Origin: Pusillimonas sp. DMV24BSW_D
GTDB taxonomy: Bacteria > Pseudomonadota > Gammaproteobacteria > Burkholderiales > Burkholderiaceae_B
NCBI RefSeq assembly: GCF_011388195.1
Contig: NZ_CP049990.1
Coordinates: 558,001-622,000 of the forward strand
Direction: 5' to 3'
DNA: 64,000 bases
The notes under the pieces were generated by a model. That model worked only from the letters and a program-made list of their open reading frames with translations, searched no databases and had not been told where the DNA came from. A program made the position numbers and the translations under genes. Shown here in pieces: positions 41,239 to 54,187 of this stretch. How positions within the stretch are numbered: the stretch's first letter is position 1; the number at the start of each line of letters is the position of its first letter.

Positions 41239-41928
41239 TTAAAGACCCAATAACACCTTCTTGCTGCCGGCAATTCGACGTCGATCTTTTAAGTCCATTT
41301 CAGCAACTGCGTTACGCCCTTCAAGGGAGGCCATAGCGTCGCGATAAATTCCGAGCGCATTTTCCATCGCTATGGTCGGGCGAATGCGCGTTAACATCCA
41401 ATCCAGCTTCGCATATACTTTCTCGTACGGAAGTTTTCCGCTAGAGGCCCACTCGTAGGCAAGCCAATCCAGGGTGTCGAACCAAGACAAAGAATCGGCC
41501 GCCTGCAAAATATCCTCTTCTGTGTTGCCCCCAATTTCATGCCGCATTACCAACGCTCGTACACGCCGAATAAACGACTCGGGTACGTCGGGCTGCTCAC
41601 GCAACCAAGCCTCGACAATATCGGCCGAACGAATTGAGTGCGCAAATAAATAATCAGGATCATCGAACGCTGTATCAGGTGTACCCGACGGCCCGCCCGG
41701 AAAAAATCGCTCGGCATCATGCACTAACGCCGCGAATTTCAATTCGGGCGAAGCACCGCCTGGTACCAACCGAATAGTCCATGCCCGGGTCGACAGCAAA
41801 TGCTCAAGTTGATAAAAACCATCAAGCCAGTCGATTGCAGCCAGTTCCAGCTTGGAAAGCGTAGAGTCGTAAAAACGCCCCCTGAATTGATCTTCAAGGG
41901 ATGCTGACATCACTGTCGGGGATTCCAT
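41239..41928 (-). CDS. HD-superfamily protein at the end of the Mo-hydroxylase operon
   Basis: A 229-residue protein with an HD-type set of metal-binding residues: His in FYQLEHLL, HD in FAALVHDAERFF, His in YLFAHSIRSADIVEAWL, His in LVMRHEIGGN and Asp in AADSLSWFD. This suggests a metal-dependent phosphohydrolase, but the family is not one I can name. A TTG at 41946 overlapping the upstream stop is also possible; the ATG at 41928 with AAGGA about 10 nt before it is preferred. It is the last gene of the operon. Removal of a phosphate added by the dikinase-like enzyme is a tempting but unproven role. Confidence 0.65.
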   Translation of the reverse strand: MESPTVMSASLEDQFRGRFYDSTLSKLELAAIDWLDGFYQLEHLLSTRAWTIRLVPGGASPELKFAALVHDAERFFPGGPSGTPDTAFDDPDYLFAHSIRSADIVEAWLREQPDVPESFIRRVRALVMRHEIGGNTEEDILQAADSLSWFDTLDWLAYEWASSGKLPYEKVYAKLDWMLTRIRPTIAMENALGIYRDAMASLEGRNAVAEMDLKDRRRIAGSKKVLLGL

Positions 41929-41942
41929 ACTCGAGGTGTCCT

Positions 41943-44369
41943 TCAAGATGTTGTTTGTTCAAATTGGGGCGAATGCATCGCACGCCACACGGCTTCCGGC
42001 GTAAGCGGCAACGCTGAAATTTCAACATTAAACTCGGCCAACGCATCACAAATAGCATTTGTTACCGCTGCAGCCGGTGCAATCGTTCCCACCTCACCCA
42101 CGCCTCGCACACCAAACGGCGTTACAGGGGAAGGAATTTCCGTGTGCAGAAGTTCAACTGGTGGCGCATCTGCAGAGGTTGGAGCGAAATAATCCATCAT
42201 AGTTCCATTCAACAGCTGCCCCGTTTCATCGTCATAGCGAAGTTCCTCGCTTAATGCCGCACCGAACCCTTGCATTAACGCCCCACGAACCTGGCCTTCT
42301 ACCAGCATTGGGTTTACAACCGTGCCACAATCATGAACCAGAATAAACCTCTCAATTTCATACTCGCCCGTAACCGGATCAACCGCTACCTGCGCTGCCG
42401 CTGTACCAAAAGCAAACGCGGCTTCCGGTGGTTCGTAATGCGCCGTCGCATCCAGACCCGGGCTTTCATCAGCCGGAATACCTTGCCCAACAATGGCGCG
42501 GTTGAACACATTAGACAGTGGTACGCATCGCTGCGCATCTTGCCGATGTCTAACTAGCGACCCTTCAATCATGAGCTCCGAGGCCGGGCACTCTAGCGCT
42601 GCGGCGGCAATTCTAAGTGTCTTGTCTCGAAACACCTCGCCCGCCTCTTTAATTGCACCGGCCGCCGCAATCATCGTTCGTGACGCAAAAGCACCTGTGT
42701 TCAATGGGGTCGAGGCCGTATCGCCTGCGTGTACACGGATACGATCAATATCCACATTAAGCACATCCGCACATACCTGGATCATGGCAGTTTCAGCACT
42801 TTGCCCAATAGAAGAGACCCCAGTGTATAAATCGATATATCCCGAGCGATTCGCGCGTAAAGTAACGCTTTCATGCGCGCCAAATTTAGAGCCCCGTTTC
42901 ATTAGAAAACGGGCACTGGCGTAACCGGTTCGCTCGATAAACACAGAAAAGCCAACGCCAACCCGGCGACCATCATCGCGGATGTTGGGTACCTGCTTGC
43001 AATGGGCTTCGTAGTTGATTGCTTTTACCGCCATATCAAGACTGAGCGGATAATCTCCACTGTCATAAACCGCGCCACTTGGCGTTTTCCAGGGCAAGTC
43101 TGATGGTTGCAGCAAATTTTTGCGACGCAGTTCAACCGGATTTATTTTTAGCTTGCGCGCCAAACGGTCTACCAGTACCTCTCGCGCAAAATTAACCTCC
43201 GGCTGACCATATCCACGATAGGCGCCCACGGGTGTTTTGTTTGTTATTGCAACACGCCGCCGAACATAAGCATCCGTTACCTTGTAGGGGCCTGTGAACG
43301 TCACACTGGAAAGTTGTGATGAGCCAAACGACGAATTCCACCCGCCTAAGTCAGTAACGTAGTCGTCTACCAACGACACAAACTTTCCGTCTTTGGTCGC
43401 ACCAATTCTATAATTGTGAAGAGACTCGCGGCCATGTGTTGCGGAACGAAAATGCTCCAACCGGTCCTCAATCCACTTGACGGGTTGACGAACGGCCATT
43501 GCATGCAATGACGCTAATACATCTTCGGGGTATGCACCCAATTTCATACCAAAGCCACCGCCCACGTCGGACGCTGTAACGTCAATACAACTTTCTTCCA
43601 TACGAAGAATTTCAGCGAGCTGTTTGCGAACGAGATGGGGCGTTTGGGTTGACATTCGCAGCGTAAGCCGACGCGCACCTGGACGCCAGTTAACAAGTAT
43701 GCCCCGTGTCTCCATTGGCAACGGTGTTACCCGGTTAACGCGAAAGGTGTCTTCTATCGTAATTTCAGCACTATCAAACTTTTGGAATGCCTCACCCGCC
43801 TGGTCAACATTCTCAGCCAGAATGTTGCTTTTCAAACATTCTGGATGCAGTACAGGCGCGTCGGGCTCAATAGTTCGGGCGGTATCTGTAATGCATGGCA
43901 ACGGTTCGTATTCAATATTAATGAGTTCAATTGCATCCTCTGCAAACGCCCGGCTGGTGGCCGCAACACTCACAATTGGCTGTCCTTCATGCAAGGCGCG
44001 CTCCTGCGCCAGTGCGTAATAAGGAAGGGCGGGGGCACCCGGAACAGGCCTTAAAACAGTTAAGGGTTCCGACTGCTCAACAATATCTTGCGGGCACAAA
44101 ATATGCTTTACCCCGGGCAACAATAATGCCTCTGAAATATCAATGGACAAGATCCGTGCGTGCGGAAATGGACAACGGGCCACTGCCATTTCCAACTGTC
44201 GCGCAGGCTTTTCGTCATCAACAAAGCACCCGTCACCGCGCACAAGCCTTAAATCCTCAACACGCAGAACCTGCTTGCCAATTTGTTTTTCCCGGCTCGA
44301 CAATTGCTGCAGGGCTTCGTCTGGCTCTGCATTGGTTTGCTGCAGTTCGTAATTAACGCGATCCAGCAT
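41943..44369 (-). CDS. Molybdenum hydroxylase large subunit (xanthine dehydrogenase / CoxL family)
   Basis: An 808-residue molybdopterin-binding subunit. The N-terminal Ald_Xan_dh_C domain (about 30-150) starts VLRVEDLRLVRGDGCFVDDE. The Mo-cofactor domain has DVGGGFGMKLGAYPEDV, the active-site loop GAYRGYGQPEVNFARE and the catalytic glutamate in GVRGVGEVGTIAPAAA. The loop lacks the AYRCSFR cysteine of form I CO dehydrogenase, so aerobic CO oxidation is unlikely; hydroxylation of an aromatic or N-heterocyclic carbon fits better. The frame extends to a GTG at 44387, but the ATG at 44369 follows GAGGAGTAAAGGG. Neighbours supply the [2Fe-2S] and FAD subunits and CoxG. Confidence 0.92.
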   Translation of the reverse strand: MLDRVNYELQQTNAEPDEALQQLSSREKQIGKQVLRVEDLRLVRGDGCFVDDEKPARQLEMAVARCPFPHARILSIDISEALLLPGVKHILCPQDIVEQSEPLTVLRPVPGAPALPYYALAQERALHEGQPIVSVAATSRAFAEDAIELINIEYEPLPCITDTARTIEPDAPVLHPECLKSNILAENVDQAGEAFQKFDSAEITIEDTFRVNRVTPLPMETRGILVNWRPGARRLTLRMSTQTPHLVRKQLAEILRMEESCIDVTASDVGGGFGMKLGAYPEDVLASLHAMAVRQPVKWIEDRLEHFRSATHGRESLHNYRIGATKDGKFVSLVDDYVTDLGGWNSSFGSSQLSSVTFTGPYKVTDAYVRRRVAITNKTPVGAYRGYGQPEVNFAREVLVDRLARKLKINPVELRRKNLLQPSDLPWKTPSGAVYDSGDYPLSLDMAVKAINYEAHCKQVPNIRDDGRRVGVGFSVFIERTGYASARFLMKRGSKFGAHESVTLRANRSGYIDLYTGVSSIGQSAETAMIQVCADVLNVDIDRIRVHAGDTASTPLNTGAFASRTMIAAAGAIKEAGEVFRDKTLRIAAAALECPASELMIEGSLVRHRQDAQRCVPLSNVFNRAIVGQGIPADESPGLDATAHYEPPEAAFAFGTAAAQVAVDPVTGEYEIERFILVHDCGTVVNPMLVEGQVRGALMQGFGAALSEELRYDDETGQLLNGTMMDYFAPTSADAPPVELLHTEIPSPVTPFGVRGVGEVGTIAPAAAVTNAICDALAEFNVEISALPLTPEAVWRAMHSPQFEQTTS

Positions 44370-44376
44370 AGTCCCT

Positions 44377-44871
44377 TTACTCCTCACCTACCATCTGCTC
44401 GCCAAGATACTGGGCAATCGCACGCACCGGCCCCTCGTAACCGGTACAGCGGCACATCACACCACTTACTTCATCACGCAGCTGCGCCATTGAAAAACGT
44501 CGACCACTTTGTTTTAGGTGTGTTGCCAACATCAAAAAACCAGGCGTACAAAAACCGCACTGCAATCCATGGTTCTCACGGAACGCGCGCTGTACCTCAT
44601 TTAGTTCATCGCCCTGAGCAAGCGACTCAACTGTTTGCACCTCGCACTCATCAAGTTGCACGGCCAGCATCAAACAAGACTTCACTGCCTCACCGTTAAC
44701 CATTATGGTGCACATCCCGCACACGCCTTGCTCGCAACCAATATGCACGCCTGTTGCACCACAGCGTTGGCGCAAGAAGTCCGCCGCATGCATGCGAACC
44801 GGGGCTGGCTCGACTATCTCTGTATCGTTAAGCCGAACTTGTATTTCAACAACGTTTGATTCTTGAACCAT
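44377..44871 (-). CDS. Molybdenum hydroxylase small [2Fe-2S] subunit (CoxS-like)
   Basis: A 164-residue iron-sulfur subunit with two [2Fe-2S] clusters: a plant-type ferredoxin domain with CEQGVCGMCTIMVNG and a later Cys in KSCLMLA, and a helical domain with GLQCGFCTPGFLML and the pair in VMCRCTGYEGPV. It transfers electrons from the molybdenum centre to FAD. It lies upstream of the large subunit with an 8-nt gap to that ATG, and downstream of coxG by 3 nt. The order M-G-S-L differs from the classic CO dehydrogenase MSL order, which is common in other hydroxylase clusters. Confidence 0.93.
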   Translation of the reverse strand: MVQESNVVEIQVRLNDTEIVEPAPVRMHAADFLRQRCGATGVHIGCEQGVCGMCTIMVNGEAVKSCLMLAVQLDECEVQTVESLAQGDELNEVQRAFRENHGLQCGFCTPGFLMLATHLKQSGRRFSMAQLRDEVSGVMCRCTGYEGPVRAIAQYLGEQMVGEE

Positions 44872-44874
44872 GAC

Positions 44875-45573
44875 CTATCCTTGGCTTACCACATGGTAAA
44901 GAACAAATAGCGACACAATAAAAGTAGCCACGCTGAATGATGCAGCTATTTTGTTCCAGGGATCATCAAAGCGAACCGGGGCAGGCTCGCCACTTTGAGC
45001 GTGTGCCCTGTTAATGTTGGCTGCCTCTTTTGCGGCAACTGCAACTTGTCCGGTAGCGTTACCTGCCACCGCACCTGGCTGGCTCGATATATGGCCAGCG
45101 GAAACATTCGGCTTTGCATCTGCCTCATTACCTGACAATACCCGAGCGAGATTTTCAGCGAACTGAGCCGTTAACTTTTCGGCTTGTTTCGCGATAATAC
45201 GTTGACCAACGCTACCAAGAGCGCCGGCCAAAGCTGCTTCGCCCTCTACTACAACGTGCGTTTGATCCGCCTTCTCATGCAAAGTAACGGTATTCGTAGC
45301 CCGAAAATTACCCACAGCACCCCGCACCGCTTTACCTATTAGCGTAAATTGAATAAGCGCAGGCGCCTGACGTTCGGTAATACGAACGTTGGTGTCAAAA
45401 CTGGCTGAAATTGGACCTACTTTTTGAGTCATACGAACAGAAAGTTGATCGGGATCCAGCACTTGAATGTTGTCAATGCCCGGCATGCATTGGGCTACCT
45501 CATCGGCTTTCTGAAAGAACGCCCACACTATCGGCAAGCGCTCGGCTACCGTAAATTCCTGTTTGAATTTCAT
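44875..45573 (-). CDS. coxG: CoxG-family SRPBCC protein with C-terminal membrane anchor
   Basis: A 232-residue protein. Residues 1-150 form a CoxG/SRPBCC domain (VAERLPIVWAFFQKADEVAQ, CMPGIDNIQ, AALAGALGSVGQRIIAKQAE). After a linker of about 55 residues rich in Ala and Gly there is a C-terminal hydrophobic segment at about 208-228 (FSVATFIVSLFVLYHVV). CoxG anchors CO dehydrogenase to the membrane in Oligotropha-type systems. By analogy it may recruit this hydroxylase to the membrane and so to a quinone pool. It lies between the FAD and [2Fe-2S] subunit genes. Confidence 0.85.
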   Translation of the reverse strand: MKFKQEFTVAERLPIVWAFFQKADEVAQCMPGIDNIQVLDPDQLSVRMTQKVGPISASFDTNVRITERQAPALIQFTLIGKAVRGAVGNFRATNTVTLHEKADQTHVVVEGEAALAGALGSVGQRIIAKQAEKLTAQFAENLARVLSGNEADAKPNVSAGHISSQPGAVAGNATGQVAVAAKEAANINRAHAQSGEPAPVRFDDPWNKIAASFSVATFIVSLFVLYHVVSQG

Positions 45574-45594
45574 CTAAAACTCTCAATCTTTCAT

Positions 45595-46482
45595 TCAATT
45601 AACCGGACTTTTGGAAAACGCACTTGACGCTTCGCGACGCAAATTGCCTAACGCTTTTCGTACATAAGCCTTCAAAAGGTGTAGCCGGTATTCGCCAGAC
45701 GCACGAATATCATCGGGCGGATCGGCTTGCGTACACGCTAGCTGCGCCGCCTGAGCAATATCCTCATCGGTCATCCGCGAGCCATTCAGAAGACTGGCTG
45801 CGTCGGTTGCCAGCATAGGCGATTCATTAACACCGCCCATACCAATACGTACGTCCTGCCAGTGTCCTTGCTCATCAATTTCACCCGCTACCGCCACAGA
45901 CACAACGGCAAAATCGTTATGTCGGCGGTTCATCTCACAAAACGCATAGAAAGGCGGATGCTTTGGATAGATGACTGAAACCACCATTTCATTCGGTTCC
46001 AGCACAGTAGCGTAGGAACCCTCATAAAATGACGTCAACGGAATTTCCCGTTCGCCTTTAACACTGACAACCTTCACTTTTGCGCCAAGCGTTAACGCGG
46101 CCAGAGGCATTTCACCGGTTGGGTCGCCTTGAACCAGACTACCCCCAACGGTGCCGCGATGGCGAACCTGGCGGTCACCTACATAACGAATCATGTTGGT
46201 CAAAAGCGGCAAACGTTGTGCAATTAACGCCGAATGCTCGATAACGTTGTAACGAACACGCGCACCTAACACCGTTTCATGCCCTTGCGCGTTAACCGCA
46301 TCCAGGCCTTCAATACGATTAATATCAATCAAAGCAGAGGGGCGCCAAAGGCGCATGTTCAGCATTGGAATTAAGCTTTGACCGCCTGCGAGGATTCGAG
46401 CGTTTCCGTCGTACTCATCCAATAGCTGAACTGCTTCTTGCACAGAAGAAGCCCTGTGATAAATAAAATCAGGGGCTTTCAT
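45595..46482 (-). CDS. Molybdenum hydroxylase medium FAD-binding subunit (CoxM-like)
   Basis: A 295-residue FAD subunit. The FAD motif ARILAGGQSLIPMLNMRLWR lies near residues 29-48, followed by TVGGSLVQGDPTGEMPLAAL and the C-terminal CO_deh_flav_C domain (FAVVSVAVAGEIDEQGHW, RIGMGGVNESPM). It accepts electrons from the [2Fe-2S] subunit and passes them to an external acceptor. It starts 5 bp after the kinase-like subunit gene and ends 21 bp before coxG. Confidence 0.93.
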   Translation of the reverse strand: MKAPDFIYHRASSVQEAVQLLDEYDGNARILAGGQSLIPMLNMRLWRPSALIDINRIEGLDAVNAQGHETVLGARVRYNVIEHSALIAQRLPLLTNMIRYVGDRQVRHRGTVGGSLVQGDPTGEMPLAALTLGAKVKVVSVKGEREIPLTSFYEGSYATVLEPNEMVVSVIYPKHPPFYAFCEMNRRHNDFAVVSVAVAGEIDEQGHWQDVRIGMGGVNESPMLATDAASLLNGSRMTDEDIAQAAQLACTQADPPDDIRASGEYRLHLLKAYVRKALGNLRREASSAFSKSPVN

Positions 46483-46487
46483 ACCGC

Positions 46488-47576
46488 TTACTCTCTCCCT
46501 GACTCAATCAGGCTTTGGCCACCGGTCATGCGTTTAAGCACATAATCAACCGGTGACTTCACACGCGTAATCGGCTGGGCAGGCTTGCTGCTCCAAACGG
46601 TTTCAGGGCGTACCTGCAGAACCCGGATTTGCAACCTATCGTCTACTGCCCACTCAATGTCCTGGGGCGCACCCCGGTCTTTCTCGACTTGTTTGGCGAA
46701 CTTTGCCAACTCGATAACGGTTTCGTCGGGCAAACAAATCGCATCCTGACGCTCGGCCTCGATTTCGCAAAAGCCCACTTCCCCGGTTTGCGGGTCAAAC
46801 CGATATTCGTGCGTTTGCGTGTGTGGCTCCCTTTTCAGCAATTGCAACGTCACTTTGTCGACTTTAAACTGCGTTGGCGTAACGTCACCTTTCACAACCC
46901 CCTCTCCTAATCCCCAGCAGGATTCGATAACGATTTTTGAGCGATCGCCGGTAATAGGGTCTAAAGTAAACATGACCCCGGCGGCTCGGGCCTGAACCAT
47001 TTGCTGAATGCCAACACAAATCGCGAAATCAGAAAGCGCAGCAACCTGCTTACCTTCATGGCGGTAAGTCAGTACGGTATCGCTGAACATGCCGGCCCAA
47101 CATTGTCGCGTGTATCGAATAACGTTCTCAACATCGGACACCCACAAGAATGTTTCGTACTGCCCGGCAAAGCTTGCGCCGGCCAGGTCTTCCGACTCGC
47201 CGCTAGACCGCACGGCAACAGGCACGTCAATCACGCCTGTGCGCTCTTCAAGTTTTTCATACGCCTGCGCAATTTGATCATGGAGATCCTGGGGCATCGG
47301 CGCCGTCATGATCTGATCAATTAATTTCGCTGTTTCAACTTTCAGTTGCGCAGGTTCGATTTCGGTTGCAATCTTTCTGACACGACTGATTTCATCCTCC
47401 AGCCCAGCGCCTTTAACAAATTCACGAAACGCCTGAGTCGTAATGCCGAACCCAGGTGGAACGGAATAGCCGGCAGCCATTGAAGTTGCAAGACTGGAAA
47501 ACTTACCGCCCAGCAATGGGTTATCTTTTGCCGCCGGATCGTCCAGCCAAAGAATGTTGGGTTTTACATCAGACAT
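46488..47576 (-). CDS. PEP-synthase-like ATP-grasp subunit, phenylphosphate synthase beta-like
   Basis: A 362-residue protein corresponding to the N-terminal ATP-binding half of PEP synthase or PPDK. Landmarks: LGGKFSSLATSMAAGYSVPP, the catalytic VPVAVRSSGESEDLAGASFA, MFTLDPITGDRSKIVI, and DIEWAVDDRLQIRVLQVRPE. It would bind ATP and transfer a phosphoryl group to the histidine of a partner. The partner histidine domain is in the preceding gene, whose stop overlaps this ATG (TGATG). Length (about 40 kDa) and split architecture match subunit 2 of phenylphosphate synthase of Thauera aromatica as I recall it. The frame begins at a TTG (47579); I use the ATG at 47576. The substrate is inferred, not shown. 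Confidence 0.8.
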   Translation of the reverse strand: MSDVKPNILWLDDPAAKDNPLLGGKFSSLATSMAAGYSVPPGFGITTQAFREFVKGAGLEDEISRVRKIATEIEPAQLKVETAKLIDQIMTAPMPQDLHDQIAQAYEKLEERTGVIDVPVAVRSSGESEDLAGASFAGQYETFLWVSDVENVIRYTRQCWAGMFSDTVLTYRHEGKQVAALSDFAICVGIQQMVQARAAGVMFTLDPITGDRSKIVIESCWGLGEGVVKGDVTPTQFKVDKVTLQLLKREPHTQTHEYRFDPQTGEVGFCEIEAERQDAICLPDETVIELAKFAKQVEKDRGAPQDIEWAVDDRLQIRVLQVRPETVWSSKPAQPITRVKSPVDYVLKRMTGGQSLIESGRE

Positions 47577-49414
47577 CAAACGGCCTCCTCAAGACGCTTT
47601 ACAGTACCGAAGTTGCCATCAACTTCAACAAGATCGCCGGTTTTAAAGGTAGACGAGGCAAAGCCTGTACCCACAACAGCCGGTAAACCATATTCGCGAG
47701 AAATGATAGCGGTATGGGCCATCATGCCCCCCACATCAGAAACCGCCGCGCTAATCATTGGGAATACGGGCGCCCAGCTTGGTGCGGTAATACGACAAAT
47801 TAAAATTTCACCCTTCTGAATTTCGTAAAGCTGCTCGGGATCTGTAATTACGCGCGCACGGCCCGTAACTTTGCCGGGCGATGCAGCTACCCCTTTCAGA
47901 ATATTCGATGAGTCTTGGCCAACGCTGAGCCACTCTTCCACGGTCTCCTGAGTAATACCAAACAACATAATTGTTAGCGGCTCGGTAATAGACTTCGGCG
48001 GAGTACCTAATGCAGGTGGGGGAGCCCATTTGGCCAATGCATCACGCTTAGCCTTACGGCGCTCAACAACCGGCTTCCAATAAACCTCACCCCGCGGTTG
48101 CGTGCCAGTGGCCCAACCAATCAACAGGTCGTATAGCGCATCACTTACTTCATGGCGATGCAGATAGAAAATATCTTCACGATCTGCAAAGAAACCACTG
48201 CTCACAAACAAGTCGCCAAGTTCACGAACCTTTTGCCAAAATATGGAGTGATGCCAATGCTCGACATAGAAATTATGATCTTCAACAAAGGGGAACACCT
48301 TGCGAGCCAAGTTCACCAGACCATCGAACGACTCACGATCCTCTTCTGTGGGTAGAAGTTCACGATACTCGGCAGTTACCCGTGCGCGTTTCTCTAGAAT
48401 TTCATCCAACGGACGGTCTACTTTCTCGCCCCGGCGCACGGCCTCGATGTAACCTCGCAATGCGGTAAATGGCAAACGCATATCCGTCATCCAAACCGGA
48501 TCTGCATGGCAGTAGCCCACACCCGTTGAATACCAGAACCAAGGGTCCTTGGAGTCTTCAAGCGACTGGACCCACTGCTGACCCTCTTTCGTTTTCTTCA
48601 ATAACTCAACGGTTTTATCAGGGCTGGTGTTATCTGTAATAACCTTGTCAACACCCAACTCTACAGCCAGTTTGGCTAAACGACGTAACTCATCATCAGG
48701 ACGGAACAAAACAATGTCGATCCCGCTTACCATGTCTGTTACTGTCTGGTCGGCAATGCCGGGGAAGGCGCTTTGGCAATATTCCCGGAAAGTCAGATAA
48801 GCACCGTAGCCCAGGTTCAACATTTCGAAATGGTAAGAGCCCATTTCAAGCATGTTTTCAATTAAGCGGTTGTATTTACACAGCAAGTCATGGCTTGAGT
48901 AAAGCCCACGGTGTCCGGTAACGTACTCTTCTTTTTCATACTCGGGCAATGGTGTAAATTCAATTGCTTTTAATCGGTCAATGCAGTCTTTTGCCTTTAC
49001 TTTCCAGTTATCGAAAATCTCATCCCAATTTTCATAGTAATGACCGGCGCGACGCGTGAAATACTCTTGACGCTCAGCCACTTTAACTGGGTCATCACAA
49101 ATATTTGGCGCGACATACAGATACCCATTAATGACACGTTGGTCTACACCAATAGCTGGCGGAAAAGCCCATACCCGATTCGTCATTTGGCTTAATGCGA
49201 CCCACCAGTTTTCCGTCATGATGGTGTCGAACGGGTACAGTGGTTCCGGGTTGTGCATACCATCAAAAAACCAGAACTTGCCTTCCTCCAGCTCCTGACG
49301 TTCGGGGCTTACCAAGCAATAATAGGGGTACAGCTCTTCCCAACCTTCCGCCCCTTCAGGCGTTGGAAGTTCAAAGGGGCTTGGAAAAGATTTCTTTTTT
49401 TCTGCAGTACTCAT
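47576..49414 (-). CDS. PEP-utilising enzyme with phospho-histidine domain, phenylphosphate synthase alpha-like
   Basis: A 612-residue protein. Residues 1-490 are an uncharacterised, largely helical domain with many aromatic residues (YPYYCLVSPERQELEEGKFW, ENWWVALSQMTNRVWAFPP). The C-terminal 90 residues are the mobile phospho-histidine domain of PEP-utilising enzymes (LICRITAPSWAPVFPMISA, DVGGMMAHTAIISREYGLP), with His567 as the expected phospho-acceptor. The PEP/pyruvate-binding TIM barrel of PEP synthase is absent, so another compound is phosphorylated. About 70 kDa, with the histidine near residue 569, is how I recall phenylphosphate synthase subunit 1. No third (CBS-domain) subunit is present. 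An AAGGAG site precedes the ATG. Confidence 0.8.
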   Translation of the reverse strand: MSTAEKKKSFPSPFELPTPEGAEGWEELYPYYCLVSPERQELEEGKFWFFDGMHNPEPLYPFDTIMTENWWVALSQMTNRVWAFPPAIGVDQRVINGYLYVAPNICDDPVKVAERQEYFTRRAGHYYENWDEIFDNWKVKAKDCIDRLKAIEFTPLPEYEKEEYVTGHRGLYSSHDLLCKYNRLIENMLEMGSYHFEMLNLGYGAYLTFREYCQSAFPGIADQTVTDMVSGIDIVLFRPDDELRRLAKLAVELGVDKVITDNTSPDKTVELLKKTKEGQQWVQSLEDSKDPWFWYSTGVGYCHADPVWMTDMRLPFTALRGYIEAVRRGEKVDRPLDEILEKRARVTAEYRELLPTEEDRESFDGLVNLARKVFPFVEDHNFYVEHWHHSIFWQKVRELGDLFVSSGFFADREDIFYLHRHEVSDALYDLLIGWATGTQPRGEVYWKPVVERRKAKRDALAKWAPPPALGTPPKSITEPLTIMLFGITQETVEEWLSVGQDSSNILKGVAASPGKVTGRARVITDPEQLYEIQKGEILICRITAPSWAPVFPMISAAVSDVGGMMAHTAIISREYGLPAVVGTGFASSTFKTGDLVEVDGNFGTVKRLEEAV

Positions 49415-49480
49415 TTTTTAGTCACTCCTTTTCAATGCTTTAGCCATGCAGGACGTAAATAACCCCCTGGCTTTCAAAAC

Positions 49481-50503
49481 TTAACGATTTCGGTTGCTGT
49501 CGCGCATTTGGTCAACTGCAATTGCAATAACTAGAACGGCGCCAATAATGATGGTTTGTAGATAACTGTTTACACGAAGCAGGTTCATTCCGTTGGATAG
49601 GGCGGTAATAAAAATTGCACCCATCACCACGTTACGCAGTAACCCGCGCCCGCCCGTTAACGAAACGCCTGCGATCAAGCATGCTGCAATCGAGTTCAGA
49701 ATCAAATCGGTTCCACCCAGGGTCGCCTCGCCACTTTCAGTGCGCGCAGTTAGCAACACCCCTCCAATGCCCACAATTGTGCCGGCAACAACATACGCAA
49801 ATACCTGATTAAGCGAGGTTCTAACACCAGACAACCGCGCCGCCCTGAAATTGCTGCCTATGGCGTAAAAATAACGGCCAAATCGCGTCCAACTTAGAAG
49901 GATGTACGTTAGAACAACAATAATTGCCGCATAAAGAATCGGTACGGGTATGCCATAAACCGAGTCGTAAGCCAGCACATTGCCGAACTGTTCCGGCAAG
50001 CCAGAAATGCTGTACCCACCAGAGATATACAGCGCCAGCCCAGATGCAATAGACAAACTGCCCAATGTCATCACAAACGGTGTTACCCGAAACAGGGCAA
50101 CCCCCAGGCCGTTGAACAACCCAACGCCGGCGCCGGTTAGCACACCCGACACAATGGCAACTGTTACGGCCCAGCTGACGGCCTCCGGGTCGATGCCCAG
50201 CATATATTTCATTACGGTTGCGGTTACCACACTGACTAATGCGACGTTACTGCCAACCGACAAGTCGATTCCGCCTGTAATCAGTATCAAAAACTGGGCA
50301 ACGCAAACAATAATTAAGTATGTAGATTGCCGCGTTAGGTTAAACAAATTGGCCTCGGATACGAACCGCGGCTCCAGCAAGCCGAACAAAACGATTAGCG
50401 CCAGCAGCAGTAGTGGCATCATGCCTATTGATGCAGCAATACTGCGCCAGCTCACACCCTGCGAAGCCGGAGCGACCTGTGTTTGTGTTGAAACCCCACT
50501 CAT
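49481..50503 (-). CDS. Ribose-type ABC transporter permease
   Basis: A 340-residue polytopic permease of the RbsC/XylH branch with about eight to ten transmembrane helices. Family stretches are ITGGIDLSVGSNVALVSVVT and YAIGSNFRAARLSGV (the EAA-like loop contacting the ATPase), with AARLSG and GGRGLLRNVVMGAIFIT later. It imports the ligand bound by the downstream-type binding protein at 52100-53185. Genes run binding protein, ATPase, permease in the direction of transcription; the permease ATG follows the ATPase stop by 4 nt. Confidence 0.92.
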   Translation of the reverse strand: MSGVSTQTQVAPASQGVSWRSIAASIGMMPLLLLALIVLFGLLEPRFVSEANLFNLTRQSTYLIIVCVAQFLILITGGIDLSVGSNVALVSVVTATVMKYMLGIDPEAVSWAVTVAIVSGVLTGAGVGLFNGLGVALFRVTPFVMTLGSLSIASGLALYISGGYSISGLPEQFGNVLAYDSVYGIPVPILYAAIIVVLTYILLSWTRFGRYFYAIGSNFRAARLSGVRTSLNQVFAYVVAGTIVGIGGVLLTARTESGEATLGGTDLILNSIAACLIAGVSLTGGRGLLRNVVMGAIFITALSNGMNLLRVNSYLQTIIIGAVLVIAIAVDQMRDSNRNR

Positions 50504-50507
50504 TCCC

Positions 50508-52091
50508 TCATTCCTTCACAAAAAATCCGGATAACGCGTTCTCTTCAGTCCGCTTGTCTCCGGTTAACTCATCCACAATTAACCCTTCCCGCACTACATA
50601 AACGCGGTTCGAGAGGCTTAATACTTCAGGCAGATCCGAGCTAATCAATAGAACAGCCATACCCGCGCTTACCAACTGCTCCAGCACTGCGTAAATTTCG
50701 GCTTTCGCGTTAACGTCGATTCCAACTGTAGGCTCATCCAAAATGAGTAACTGCGGTTCGCGCGCCAAAAACCGCCCCAAGAGGGCTTTTTGCATGTTCC
50801 CGCCAGAAAAACCTTGGGCGGTACGTTCGATATCCAAGGGCGCAAGAGACATGCGCTTGGCCATGTCGAACGACTCACGCTTTTCTGCTTTGCGCGATAA
50901 CATCCCGCTTCTTAGAAGCGTTGGCGACTTTAACGATGCCAATGAAATATTCTCGCGAACACTACGGCATAGCAGCATGCCTTCATGTATTCGATCGTTG
51001 GTAACGTAGGCGACGCCCGACTGAATGAAATCTCGGGGTGTAGCATGACTTAAGTCGATATCTCCTAGCTGAATGGCGCCACCTGCACGAGGCTCTACCC
51101 CAAAACAAGCCCGGCCTATCTCAGACTTGCCGCAACCAACCAAACCAGCTAGGCCAACAATTTCGCCTCGCCGCACGGTAAGCGAGGCATCACGCACTTT
51201 TCCATTCACCGTTGAAAGTGAGGACACCGTTAACAGCGTTTCTGTCGGGCTGAACTGGATCTCGGGGTAAAACCCGCCGAAGCTACGGCCTGTCATGAGT
51301 TCGACAAGCTGCTTGCGGTCTGTTTCAGAAGCGCCCACGGTCGCAATATGTCGGCCGTCGCGCATTACCGTTACGCGGTCGCCAATTTGCTGAATTTCGC
51401 TAATTCGGTGCGAAATGTAGATCACCCCCACACCCGAGCGCTTCAAACCTCGAATGAGTTCAAACAGTTGCGTGGTCTCCGCCTCCGTCAAAGAGGCAGT
51501 GGGTTCATCAAGAATAAGAATGCGGGGTTCGGTTAGTGCCGCCTTGGCAATTTCTACCATTTGGCACTCGGCACGCGACAAACTGCCCACTAACGCATCA
51601 GGGCTGATATGAAAACCAAGTCGTTGAAAATGCTGCAATGCTGTTGTGCGCATTGCTTTCTTATGCAATAACCCTGACCAACCCCTTTTTTCGTTCGCAA
51701 GGAATAGATTTTCTTCAACGGTCATGTCGGGAGCAAGACTAAACTCCTGATACACAACAGAGACCCCCGCATGACGCGCATCCTGAACAGAACGGAAAGT
51801 AACGGGTTTGCCATCGATAAATATCTGACCTGACGATGGCGGCAAGGCGCCACAAATAATATTAATAAGTGTCGACTTGCCGGCGCCGTTTTCACCGAAC
51901 AGTACATGGACCTCACCGGCACGAACATCCAAGTCCATGTCGGTGAGAGCCTGTACACCAGGGAACTGCCGGCTAACTTTACGAACGCTAAGCAACGCGT
52001 CCGCATTAACCCCGGCAGCCTCAGGTTCAGACCAGGTGGTTTCATTTGGCATTAGATTTCTTCTTGCACCCAAGGCCTGCACACTCATCAT
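50508..52091 (-). CDS. Ribose-type ABC transporter ATPase (two ATP-binding domains)
   Basis: A 527-residue tandem ATPase of the RbsA/MglA type. Domain 1: Walker A in FGENGAGKSTLINII, a signature-like SLSRAECQMVEIAKA, Walker B ILILDEPTASLTEAE. Domain 2: degenerate P-loop LAGLVGCGKSEIGRACF, signature GFSGGNMQKALLGRFLA, Walker B LLILDEPTVGIDV. Degeneration of the second P-loop is normal in this family. It lies directly between the binding protein and the permease genes. Two adjacent ATGs (52091, 52088) and one at 52052 are possible starts; AAGGTGG precedes the first. Confidence 0.93.
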   Translation of the reverse strand: MMSVQALGARRNLMPNETTWSEPEAAGVNADALLSVRKVSRQFPGVQALTDMDLDVRAGEVHVLFGENGAGKSTLINIICGALPPSSGQIFIDGKPVTFRSVQDARHAGVSVVYQEFSLAPDMTVEENLFLANEKRGWSGLLHKKAMRTTALQHFQRLGFHISPDALVGSLSRAECQMVEIAKAALTEPRILILDEPTASLTEAETTQLFELIRGLKRSGVGVIYISHRISEIQQIGDRVTVMRDGRHIATVGASETDRKQLVELMTGRSFGGFYPEIQFSPTETLLTVSSLSTVNGKVRDASLTVRRGEIVGLAGLVGCGKSEIGRACFGVEPRAGGAIQLGDIDLSHATPRDFIQSGVAYVTNDRIHEGMLLCRSVRENISLASLKSPTLLRSGMLSRKAEKRESFDMAKRMSLAPLDIERTAQGFSGGNMQKALLGRFLAREPQLLILDEPTVGIDVNAKAEIYAVLEQLVSAGMAVLLISSDLPEVLSLSNRVYVVREGLIVDELTGDKRTEENALSGFFVKE

Positions 52092-52099
52092 TAACCACC

Positions 52100-53185
52100 T
52101 TACTTAACTTCGAAGTAGGGTTCCCAGCCTTCTGGGGCCAACGACAATGCCCGATTATGGGTTTTCACCGACTCTTGGTCGATAATGCCAAAACCGGTAT
52201 CTACATCTTGCGCCACTGGCTTTTCTTCCAGAAGCCTGACGAGCTGGTCGATTGCCACACGCGCCTGGGCGGCGGTGTAGTCAGTGGCAGTTGCCTCAAC
52301 TGAACCGTCACGCAAACCCGCCTCCACAACCGGTGTTGTATAAGATGACAACAAACCAATCTCTGTCTTGCCCTTTTCTTTCAACACCTGAATGCCCGCC
52401 TCGATCGCAGGCGCAATACCGCCGATGTAATCTACATCCGGATATGCAAGCAATGCATCTTCAATCAAAGGAATTTGTGCCGCTTTACTTGGCTCGCCCC
52501 AAATCACTTTCACCACTTCAATGTTGTCGACATCTTTTAAGGTCGCGACAAACCCATCGGCAGAATCCTTCGACCAGCGAGGCGCCTCGGGGCCACCCAA
52601 CCAAACAACCTTCACTGAGTCACTACCTTTAGGGTGTTTTTTCATTAGGTACTCACCCACCATGCGCCCAGCATCAAACCAATTTCCCTGGGCACGCGCC
52701 GCCACGCGATCAGAGGTGACATCCCCACCCGTAATAGCCGTTGGTACGCCCTGATCGGCCGCACGCGCAATAGCGCGGTTCAAGCCAGTTGCAGAAATCG
52801 CCACCATTGCAATGCCGTCAGCACCTCGGCTAACACAGTCCTCAAGCTGCGAGATCTGGGTTGGCAACTCGGTATAACCGCCAGCGGCAAACACATTCAG
52901 CGCAATCCCTTTAGCTTTTGCCTCGGTTACTGCGCCATATGTCATCGCCATGTAATAAGGATCTTTCGTATGGGGAAACAACACACAGATATTCCATTTT
53001 TCCGACACATCGGATTTCGGTAGCGGTTTATAAACCGCGTCTTTCCATTCCCCTTTTTCAGAAAACGGGGGCGTACGTTCTTTTACGTTCAACTCCCAGT
53101 TATCGGTTGCGTCTGCCGCAGAAACAGCGCCTACCGCCGTCATCAGCAGGCCCCCAAGCAGTAGTGATAAAGCGTTCTTTTTCAT
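52100..53185 (-). CDS. Periplasmic binding protein, TorT-like / ribose-type
   Basis: A 361-residue periplasmic binding protein of the Peripla_BP_4 type. Signal peptide 1-23 (LLLGGLLMTAVGAVSAADA). The mature start WNICVLFPHTKDPYYMAMTY resembles TorT, the TMAO sensor, more than sugar-binding proteins. The sequence then runs as a type 1 fold (ISQLEDCVSRGADGIAMVAI, VWLGGPEAPRWSKDSADGFV). It is the first gene of the catabolic operon; the ligand is therefore probably the compound that the kinase-like and molybdenum enzymes process. Candidate -35/-10 and a TetR-type operator lie upstream at 53239-53250. Confidence 0.9.
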   Translation of the reverse strand: MKKNALSLLLGGLLMTAVGAVSAADATDNWELNVKERTPPFSEKGEWKDAVYKPLPKSDVSEKWNICVLFPHTKDPYYMAMTYGAVTEAKAKGIALNVFAAGGYTELPTQISQLEDCVSRGADGIAMVAISATGLNRAIARAADQGVPTAITGGDVTSDRVAARAQGNWFDAGRMVGEYLMKKHPKGSDSVKVVWLGGPEAPRWSKDSADGFVATLKDVDNIEVVKVIWGEPSKAAQIPLIEDALLAYPDVDYIGGIAPAIEAGIQVLKEKGKTEIGLLSSYTTPVVEAGLRDGSVEATATDYTAAQARVAIDQLVRLLEEKPVAQDVDTGFGIIDQESVKTHNRALSLAPEGWEPYFEVK

Positions 53186-53425: not shown

Positions 53426-54187
53426 TTACCAACCAGGTGTTGATGGGGCTTGCATTCCATGCACCAGAAAAGTACTTAACCGGGCAACCATTTCATCTAT
53501 ATTGTCGTCTGTGTAACGTCCATCTGATAAGTCTTCTAATCGGCCCAGGCCTGAGAGCGCGTAAAGGCAAATACCAATTAAGAACATCATCCGCCAATGA
53601 ATATCAGCTGAGCTAACATTGGGCTGCAATATTTCCAATACGTCCAGATAGTGCTTAACAGAATCATCGTAAACTTCGCGCCGCAATCGAAATGACAACT
53701 CTTCTGGTTCGTTGTGCAATCGTGCTAGCAAACGCACAAACGCAATGCCACGCGGGCCGCTGTGTAACAAGCTGAACAAGGGCAATAAGTACGCACGAAT
53801 GACATTCGCGACGGGGGGTTGCCCATCATACTTTTTGAGCAACGTTTCCAGGTTACGCATGCGTTGAACCGAGATCGCCTGCCCCCTGTTCTTGATGACT
53901 GCCTCGAATAAACTACGCTTTGATTTGAAGTAATACGAAATCATCGATTGACGAACGCCCGCCTGCGCCGCAATTTCCCGGGTCGACGTCAATGCATAGC
54001 CACGTTCAGCAAAATACATTTCGGCAATATCGATAATCTGGTTACGAATATCCCGGTTAACGGTTGGACGGCCCGGTCTTTTCTCACTCGAGGCGTCGGC
54101 GCCACCCTCGTTATCGTATACGGCCAATCCATCACTGCGTAACGACGCCTTTCTGCCTTCCTTGTCTACCCACGATGATTTAAGCAT
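53426..54187 (-). CDS. TetR/AcrR-family regulator of the catabolic operon (inferred)
   Basis: A 253-residue regulator with a variable N-terminal extension of about 40 residues and then a TetR helix-turn-helix (IIDIAEMYFAERGYALTSTR, EIAAQAGVRQSMISYYFKSK). The C-terminal ligand domain is helical (IRAYLLPLFSLLHSGPRG, LARLHNEPEELSFRLRREVY) and ends near ARLSTFLVHGMQ. It lies upstream on the same strand as the operon, separated by 240 bp that hold a compact palindrome. Control of the ABC/Mo-hydroxylase operon is inferred from position only. The ligand is unknown. Confidence 0.85.
   Translation of the reverse strand: MLKSSWVDKEGRKASLRSDGLAVYDNEGGADASSEKRPGRPTVNRDIRNQIIDIAEMYFAERGYALTSTREIAAQAGVRQSMISYYFKSKRSLFEAVIKNRGQAISVQRMRNLETLLKKYDGQPPVANVIRAYLLPLFSLLHSGPRGIAFVRLLARLHNEPEELSFRLRREVYDDSVKHYLDVLEILQPNVSSADIHWRMMFLIGICLYALSGLGRLEDLSDGRYTDDNIDEMVARLSTFLVHGMQAPSTPGW

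Follow-up and report, generated by a model that had tools for sequence, protein, structure and literature searches.

The locus analysed here, a ten-gene operon within a 64,000-nucleotide stretch of the Pusillimonas sp. DMV24BSW_D genome (the window: positions 558001-622000 of 3.19 Mb), has its closest described counterpart in the 3hpd cluster of Ensifer adhaerens HP1. In the 2020 work of Wang et al., this cluster is said to encode a four-component molybdenum (Mo) hydroxylase, HpdA, which has a separate SRPBCC/CoxG component and leads to 2,5-dihydroxypyridine; HpdA activity reportedly involved a phosphoenolpyruvate (PEP)-utilizing protein and a pyruvate phosphate dikinase (PPDK). The 4-cresol route of Corynebacterium glutamicum reportedly combines the cytochrome P450 system CreJEF with an HD-domain phosphohydrolase, CreD. 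According to the accessible part of PMC9618137, the split kinase of this route is CreHI, while the kinase HpeHI phosphorylates acetovanillone and its carboxylase acts only on phosphorylated compounds. A CoxG homologue has been proposed as the membrane anchor of HpdA (PMC11962113, in the passages available), and Agrobacterium sp. DW-1 converts 3-hydroxypyridine to 2,5-dihydroxypyridine by alpha-hydroxylation (PMC6525221, likewise in part). We propose that the operon in the window, which lies in a 13-kb block, very probably encodes an upper pathway for 3-hydroxypyridine of the HpdA type. The cluster type is already in print; a role for its kinase and HD genes is proposed below.

A split kinase beside a molybdenum hydroxylase

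The ten genes run in one direction on the minus strand, from 53185 down to 41239 (open reading frame list and Pfam). They are separated by -11 to +66 bp, and the first-pass annotation's description of a tightly packed, same-strand set holds for all ten frames. The genes for the enzymes are the following.

47576..49414, minus strand: H subunit of the split aryl phosphotransferase, 612 residues (NF006153; phospho-histidine domain and presumed substrate domain)
46488..47579, minus strand: I subunit of the split phosphotransferase, ATP-grasp (PPDK_N, 8e-89; 363 residues from the listed TTG start)
45595..46482, minus strand: flavin adenine dinucleotide (FAD) subunit of the Mo hydroxylase (FAD_binding_5 and CO_deh_flav_C)
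44875..45573, minus strand: CoxG-like SRPBCC protein whose C-terminal tail is hydrophobic (COXG, 8e-17; tail seen by eye in the translation)
44377..44871, minus strand: [2Fe-2S] (FeS) subunit of the Mo hydroxylase (Fer2 and Fer2_2; both cysteine motifs present)
41943..44387, minus strand: Mo subunit, nearest azaarene hydroxylases (MoCoBD_1 and MoCoBD_2; AYRGYGQPE and GVGE motifs)
41239..41946, minus strand: HD-fold protein, proposed phosphohydrolase, 235 residues (invariant HD-type residues; model; structural match 2pq7)

The FAD, CoxG/SRPBCC, FeS and Mo genes stand in a row and form the gene set of a four-component Mo hydroxylase; each product has a Pfam match, in agreement with the first-pass annotation. 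The CoxG-like protein is likely to be the fourth, separate component and a membrane anchor. Among solved sequences, the best relative of the Mo subunit is quinoline 2-oxidoreductase (1t3q, 7.8e-151), followed by a CO dehydrogenase chain (8uem) in second and 6-hydroxypseudooxynicotine dehydrogenase (7dqx) in third place. The active-site loop of aerobic CO dehydrogenase is AYRCSFR, with a cysteine. Instead of it, the window's Mo subunit has the loop AYRGYGQPE, also found in all 25 Mo subunits of its group with >50% identity, and the window's scores lie below the CO dehydrogenase cut-offs; on these grounds aerobic CO dehydrogenase was ruled out.

The H subunit scores 811.8 bits against NCBIfam NF006153 (cut-off 578), a family described there as "hypothetical protein". 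Its match to the Pfam domain PEP-utilizers is limited to residues 532-602, and H567 is invariant among 39 aligned sequences. The I gene overlaps the H gene by 4 bp; the length first given for H was correct, that for I (362) one residue short. Similarity of H to PEP synthase entries in the Protein Data Bank (PDB) is confined to the last ~100-120 C-terminal residues, and neither subunit reaches an NCBIfam cut-off for PEP synthase or rifampin phosphotransferase. Both candidates were rejected for these reasons and because the chains are split. Elsewhere in the genome, PPDK_N matches one further, separate open frame of 808 residues.

The H subunits were placed in a tree of 88 out of 92 possible rows (quick search, Shimodaira-Hasegawa-like approximate likelihood ratio test [SH-aLRT] only, midpoint root). 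Left out were a near copy of the window (L030), the partial L096, a second copy with 26% identity in L095 and, without any particular reason, the full-length L064. The window's H falls in a 39-row group (SH-aLRT 100) comprising L069 and 38 rows labelled 3hpd-type, a label that denotes position in the match list (H at least 54% identical among L031-L066) rather than the presence of nic genes in each row. The rows from Azoarcus (phenol), Rhodococcus (P450), the acetovanillone-type loci and the haloarchaeal loci all lie outside this group. The Azoarcus phenol protein, which is encoded beside CBS and phenylphosphate carboxylase genes and is 45% identical to H, is represented by one row on a long branch. 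Tree and C-terminal similarity together bear out, on sequence grounds, the earlier view of the kinase, which is kin to phenylphosphate synthase and not a PEP synthase. The phylogenetic check called for in the first-pass annotation, made with H, did not, however, group this subunit with the Azoarcus protein, and the suggested link to anaerobic phenol degradation is reduced to distant kinship.

Two observations on the kinase family may be added. In two actinobacterial metagenome-assembled genomes (L065 and L066), two H genes occur with one I subunit, and the two kinds of copy form separate branches. Viral contigs were scanned once, with a single-protein query of a kind that detects only close relatives, and no relative turned up.

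Association with 2,5-dihydroxypyridine genes

Named bacterial and archaeal genomes were scanned with an H-subunit alignment. The best 80 of 172 relatives were kept, making 79 loci; the window's proteins were mapped on these and on seven plasmid loci, and neighbouring genes were grouped for the closer loci. Alcaligenaceae, Paraburkholderia, Halomonadaceae, Acetobacter, Rhodospirillales and many Actinomycetota share the set H, I, FAD, CoxG, FeS, Mo and HD; in the actinobacterial loci, HD precedes FeS and Mo. Twenty-five of the 38 3hpd-type loci (L030-L066 and L096) are complete, in that H, FAD and Mo are present; the other 13 lie on short or cut contigs and were not counted. I and FeS occur in 25/25 complete loci, CoxG and HD in 24/25 each, and the same loci carry NicX (19/25), NicD (20/25), NicE (18/25) and NicF (20/25), at least one of the four being present in 21/25. 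Outside the group, 47 loci were counted without a contig-length filter, L069 belonging to neither set. NicX, NicE, NicF and the HD family are absent from all 47, and a NicD-like hydrolase of 26-31% identity occurs in three. The Mo count for these loci is also 0 of 47, but L003 and L105 do have an Mo hydroxylase, whose Mo gene was in each case assigned to a closer reference of its own.

The recurring neighbours, as found in Phytohalomonas tamaricis (L036), were compared with solved structures. NicX matched 2,5-dihydroxypyridine 5,6-dioxygenase (7cn3, 5e-94), NicD a deformylase (4l0c, 3e-87), NicE maleate cis-trans isomerase (4fq7, 2e-108) and NicF, so named from the gene's place in the set, an isochorismatase-family hydrolase (4l07, 9e-97); none of these four proteins exceeded an NCBIfam cut-off. 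In the available part of PMC10142695, 2,5-dihydroxypyridine is taken to fumarate in four steps by a dioxygenase, a deformylase, an amidohydrolase and an isomerase. Loci that hold nicX, nicD, nicE and nicF include L032, L036, L040 and L043, to whose H subunits that of the window is 69-73% identical. Pusillimonas caeni (L031) has the same eleven genes as the window, with H 91% identical, and a NicE-like gene (Amdase domain) directly after HD on the opposite strand. No nic gene is within reach in some 3hpd-type tree rows, such as L035, L037, L038, L039 and L041.

No lower-pathway gene adjoins the operon in the window, the homologues in this genome being ~50 and ~250 kb away. Three NicX-like genes are found, at 863, 681 and 968 kb (44, 36 and 36% identity, respectively). 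The first is accompanied by NicD-like (60%) and NicF-like (42%) genes, a MarR gene, an Amidohydro_2 gene (PicC-like by place only), Rieske oxygenase genes and another Mo hydroxylase. A NicE homologue (67%) lies at 661 kb, ~50 kb from the operon. The 863-kb cluster resembles the picolinate (pic) clusters in the portion of PMC10142695 at hand, in which the isomerase gene can lie apart. Given the NicX-, NicD-, NicF- and NicE-like genes, it is plausible, as far as homology goes, that the organism can use 2,5-dihydroxypyridine. We propose 3-hydroxypyridine as the substrate of the operon because it fits three observations: a hydroxyl is what the kinase's relatives act on, quinoline 2-oxidoreductase is the nearest relative of the hydroxylase, and the neighbouring genes use 2,5-dihydroxypyridine. 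By association it is a strong candidate, and an operon that looked orphan thus receives a likely substrate.

Some loci of the group show further features. An Amt-like (ammonium-transporter-family) permease gene lies divergently beside the pyridine cluster in 14/25 complete loci (L036:8112-9545 and 13 others); the protein may move ammonium or may have been recruited for the substrate. Three alphaproteobacterial metagenome-assembled genomes (L038, L039, L041) share genes for a Rid-family protein and an allantoinase/deacetylase-like protein and, as read by eye, a solute-binding protein and ATP-binding cassette (ABC) genes. L069, from Acidimicrobiia and within the window's H group, combines the kinase with a TorT-like importer, two sets of Mo hydroxylase genes and a CN_hydrolase gene, and has no nic gene within reach.

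The remaining genes of the operon encode an importer, and a regulator gene lies 240 bp upstream.

52100..53185, minus strand: TorT-like CUT2 substrate-binding protein of the ABC importer (Peripla_BP_4; NF008185 above cut-off)
50508..52091, minus strand: ATPase of the ABC importer, two ABC domains, CUT2 type (two ABC_tran stretches; two Walker A motifs)
49481..50503, minus strand: permease of the ABC importer (BPD_transp_2)
53426..54187, minus strand: TetR-family regulator (TetR_N and TetR_C_30; within the 13-kb block)

An ABC importer with a TorT-like binding protein had been recognized at the outset, and the domain matches agree with this. The best PDB sequence for the binding protein is 4yhs, a CUT2 binding protein (1.6e-66). 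It passes the TorT-like family NF008185 (258.7 bits, cut-off 200) and does not reach the TorT equivalog TIGR02955 (207.9 bits, cut-off 310). Since it is encoded with ATPase and permease genes, we read it as an importer component and not as a sensor of trimethylamine N-oxide, a function ruled out by the TIGR02955 cut-off and the gene context. Our literature searches, which covered open-licence papers only, so that absence says little, gave nothing relevant on TorT with pyridines. Among complete 3hpd-type loci the TorT-like binding protein is present in 2/25 (L030 and L031), where the TetR gene also accompanies the operon (99 and 73% identity, respectively).

Operon and TetR gene differ from the remaining window in G+C content (50.8% vs 55.1%). 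In Neopusillimonas maritima 17-4A (L030), the operon's proteins have counterparts of 99-100% identity. In a genome with the operon (G002), the flanking thiolase and DUF494 genes are 13.25 kb apart. In two sister genomes (G001 and G003) the same flanks are ~150 bp apart and no full-length H homologue is found. The difference in spacing indicates that operon and TetR gene come or go as one 13-kb block. The comparison covered these three genomes, no DUF494 gene having been found in a third sister, G004. We read the block as gained by insertion, the alternative being loss in the sisters. A full-length H relative occurs in 5/250 genomes sampled from the family, the window's genome included (100, 100, 91, 69 and 44% identity).

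A proposed phosphate tag and its alternatives

The grouping of the kinase, the gene association, the presence or absence of the block and the lower-pathway genes were computed; from here on we infer every chemical step. The importer would take up 3-hydroxypyridine, and H and I would then use ATP, by way of a phosphohistidine, to form pyridin-3-yl phosphate, as their relatives HpeHI and CreHI suggest. The four-component Mo hydroxylase would hydroxylate this compound at C6 with oxygen from water. Nicotinate is hydroxylated at C6 by Mo enzymes, and an O3-phosphate would put a negative charge at the place of its carboxylate, so that the charged 3-substituent would make the substrate resemble nicotinate. 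Hydrolysis of the phosphate by the HD-fold protein would free 2,5-dihydroxypyridine, which NicX/NicD/NicF/NicE-type enzymes, whose genes are present elsewhere, could convert to fumarate. The first-pass annotation had arrived at the same outline of import, phosphorylation and hydroxylation for a compound that it left unnamed; the nic-gene association allows 3-hydroxypyridine to be put in its place, and the HD protein, previously given no role, may complete the cycle as a phosphatase.

In its strictest form, the tag would be obligatory: the Mo hydroxylase would accept only the pyridin-3-yl phosphate made by the kinase, at C6, and the HD-fold protein would belong to a new family of aryl phosphate phosphatases that releases 2,5-dihydroxypyridine. 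On this proposal we are evenly divided. We know of no Mo hydroxylase that acts on a phosphorylated aromatic, although no search was aimed at this point, and a phosphorylated pyridine intermediate was not seen in the open-licence literature searched.

In the window, the HD and Mo genes share 4 bp. The product of the HD gene has no Pfam match at E<=0.001, HD (PF01966) included, and three relatives stay below the PF01966 cut-off of 22 (14.7 and 18.1 bits in two, no match in one), but the invariant HD-type residues and the modelled fold uphold its original designation as an HD protein. H49, H76-D77, H103, H136 and D151 are invariant in 28 aligned sequences (the window and 27/30 matches, with L030, L061 and L063 left out). 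We take them to be the metal ligands of the HD phosphohydrolase set (H...HD...H...H...D). The model (predicted local distance difference test score, 92.6) has an HD fold. Among solved structures it matches best 2pq7, whose title is HD superfamily hydrolase; YpgQ, small alarmone hydrolases and phosphodiesterases are also among the matches. A family profile run against PDB sequences gave chance-level matches only (gelsolin, E 0.24 or worse), and a weak similarity to DUF4202 was noted. Comparison with the HD protein of Rhodococcus P450-kinase clusters gave a BLASTP E of 0.17 and an hhalign probability of 7% (E 0.005), a weak match in which the HD pairs of the two proteins align.

One could envision that the HD protein instead hydrolyses nucleotides or pyrophosphate, or has a regulatory function, and that the phosphate leaves by other means. 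The range of structural matches, the DUF4202 similarity and the failure to match, at family level, the HD protein found in P450 clusters would all accord with this. Seven of ten full-length plasmid matches of the kinase were inspected for a possible phosphatase gene, which is found in five loci: HD in L004 and L005, HAD in L007 and metallophosphoesterase in L008 and L009. The other two, from Thermomicrobium and Azoarcus, have no gene annotated as a phosphatase and count against a tag that is put on and taken off again. The five positive loci, the HD homologue in nearly every complete 3hpd-type locus and the overlap with the Mo gene speak for a phosphatase, and we regard the other functions as possible but doubtful. 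An indirect role has also been considered for the kinase pair, which might serve the hydroxylase by phosphorylating a protein or cofactor needed for activity. The 2020 HpdA work reportedly tied the two proteins to activity without an assigned reaction, and our few searches of open-licence papers brought up no phosphorylated pyridine. However, the catalytic histidine is conserved, and the related HpeHI acts on the growth substrate itself, phosphorylating its hydroxyl (PMC9618137, in the part available); an indirect role therefore seems to us unlikely.

Two further alternatives concern the substrate. It might be a substituted 3-hydroxypyridine, bearing for instance a carboxylate or an alkyl chain; in that case the importer, and the lack of nic genes next to the operon, would point to a lineage whose specificity has shifted. 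Such a compound would suit the restriction of the TorT-like importer to Neopusillimonas and Pusillimonas loci among those complete, the distance between the operon and nicX, and the presence in the genome of three NicX-like genes and a picolinate-like cluster. The close identity of H to kinases from loci with all four nic genes, and the nicE-like gene adjoining the P. caeni operon, argue instead for 3-hydroxypyridine itself and render a shifted specificity rather improbable. A phenol or cresol pathway, with phenylphosphate synthase acting without its usual partners, would agree with the split kinase architecture and with the kinship to the Azoarcus protein. Yet neither a CBS subunit nor a phenylphosphate carboxylase (as already pointed out in the first-pass annotation) nor a P450 is encoded among the ten genes, H groups elsewhere in the tree and the Mo hydroxylase is nearest an azaarene enzyme. 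Anaerobic phenol or cresol degradation is disfavoured by the tree and by gene content, and we give this pathway hardly any credence.

Relatives of the kinase keep other company elsewhere. Eighteen actinobacterial loci between L082 and L107, which belong to another group, combine the split kinase with a Rieske (LigXa-like) oxygenase (17/18), extradiol-type dioxygenases (13/18) and meta-cleavage genes; a HAD gene is present in 13/18 and a partial histidine-phosphatase match in 10/18. This set looks like another phosphate-tag aromatic pathway. On the haloarchaeal plasmids of L008 and L009, the split kinase lies near genes for a ring-hydroxylating dioxygenase, a metallophosphoesterase and an aldehyde dehydrogenase. 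In L105 and on the Thermomicrobium roseum plasmid NC_011961 (L003 and L116), kinase genes from another part of the tree accompany a different Mo hydroxylase, a TorT-like ABC importer and a gene for biotin carboxylase; the T. roseum locus also has genes for the 5-oxoprolinase subunit PxpA and a carboxyltransferase.

If the tag hypothesis is true, it would explain why the 3hpd-type clusters have kinase and HD genes, predict the intermediates and offer a possible answer to why kinase-like genes accompany 3-hydroxypyridine oxidation. It is tempting to view the tag as one case of a wider scheme of phosphorylation, modification and dephosphorylation, in which members of one kinase family would work together with a modifying enzyme (P450, Rieske, Mo or carboxylating) and a phosphatase (HD, HAD, histidine or metallo-phosphatase). 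A common logic would thereby connect some members of the large "PRK08296/PEP-utilizing enzyme" family.

Relation to known systems

The two solved enzymes of N-heterocycles nearest to the Mo subunit, quinoline 2-oxidoreductase and 6-hydroxypseudooxynicotine dehydrogenase, are likewise Mo hydroxylases; to our knowledge, neither is accompanied by a kinase or an HD protein. Phenylphosphate synthase has in common with the operon two homologous kinase subunits. The window differs in having neither the CBS third subunit nor the carboxylase, and in the place of its H in the tree; queries with the Azoarcus CBS, PpcA and PpcB proteins labelled no gene in L030-L066. The CreHI/CreJEF/CreD system follows the same logic of split kinase, oxidation and HD phosphohydrolase, with a P450 and a carbocyclic phenol there and an Mo hydroxylase here. 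In the Rhodococcus loci that we take as Cre type (L004 and L005), the HD protein has no detectable family kinship to that of the window and H lies in another part of the tree. In the HpeHI/HpeCBA/HpeD system, as far as described in the accessible part of PMC9618137, a homologous kinase acts on the hydroxyl of the substrate and the phosphate is later removed, the intervening step being biotin-dependent carboxylation there and hydroxylation here.

The 3hpd/HpdA cluster comes closest. Going by its reported content, the window likewise has a four-component Mo hydroxylase together with PEP-utilizing and PPDK-like genes, a likeness of gene content, since no E. adhaerens HP1 record was among the loci compared. 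The window adds a TorT-like CUT2 ABC importer and a TetR gene, and has no adjacent lower-pathway genes. The taxonomic spread of HpdA given in the available portion of PMC10117386 overlaps with that of the present loci, except that no Rubrobacteria were seen here. We conclude that the operon is a new member of a known catabolic cluster type, with an importer of its own.

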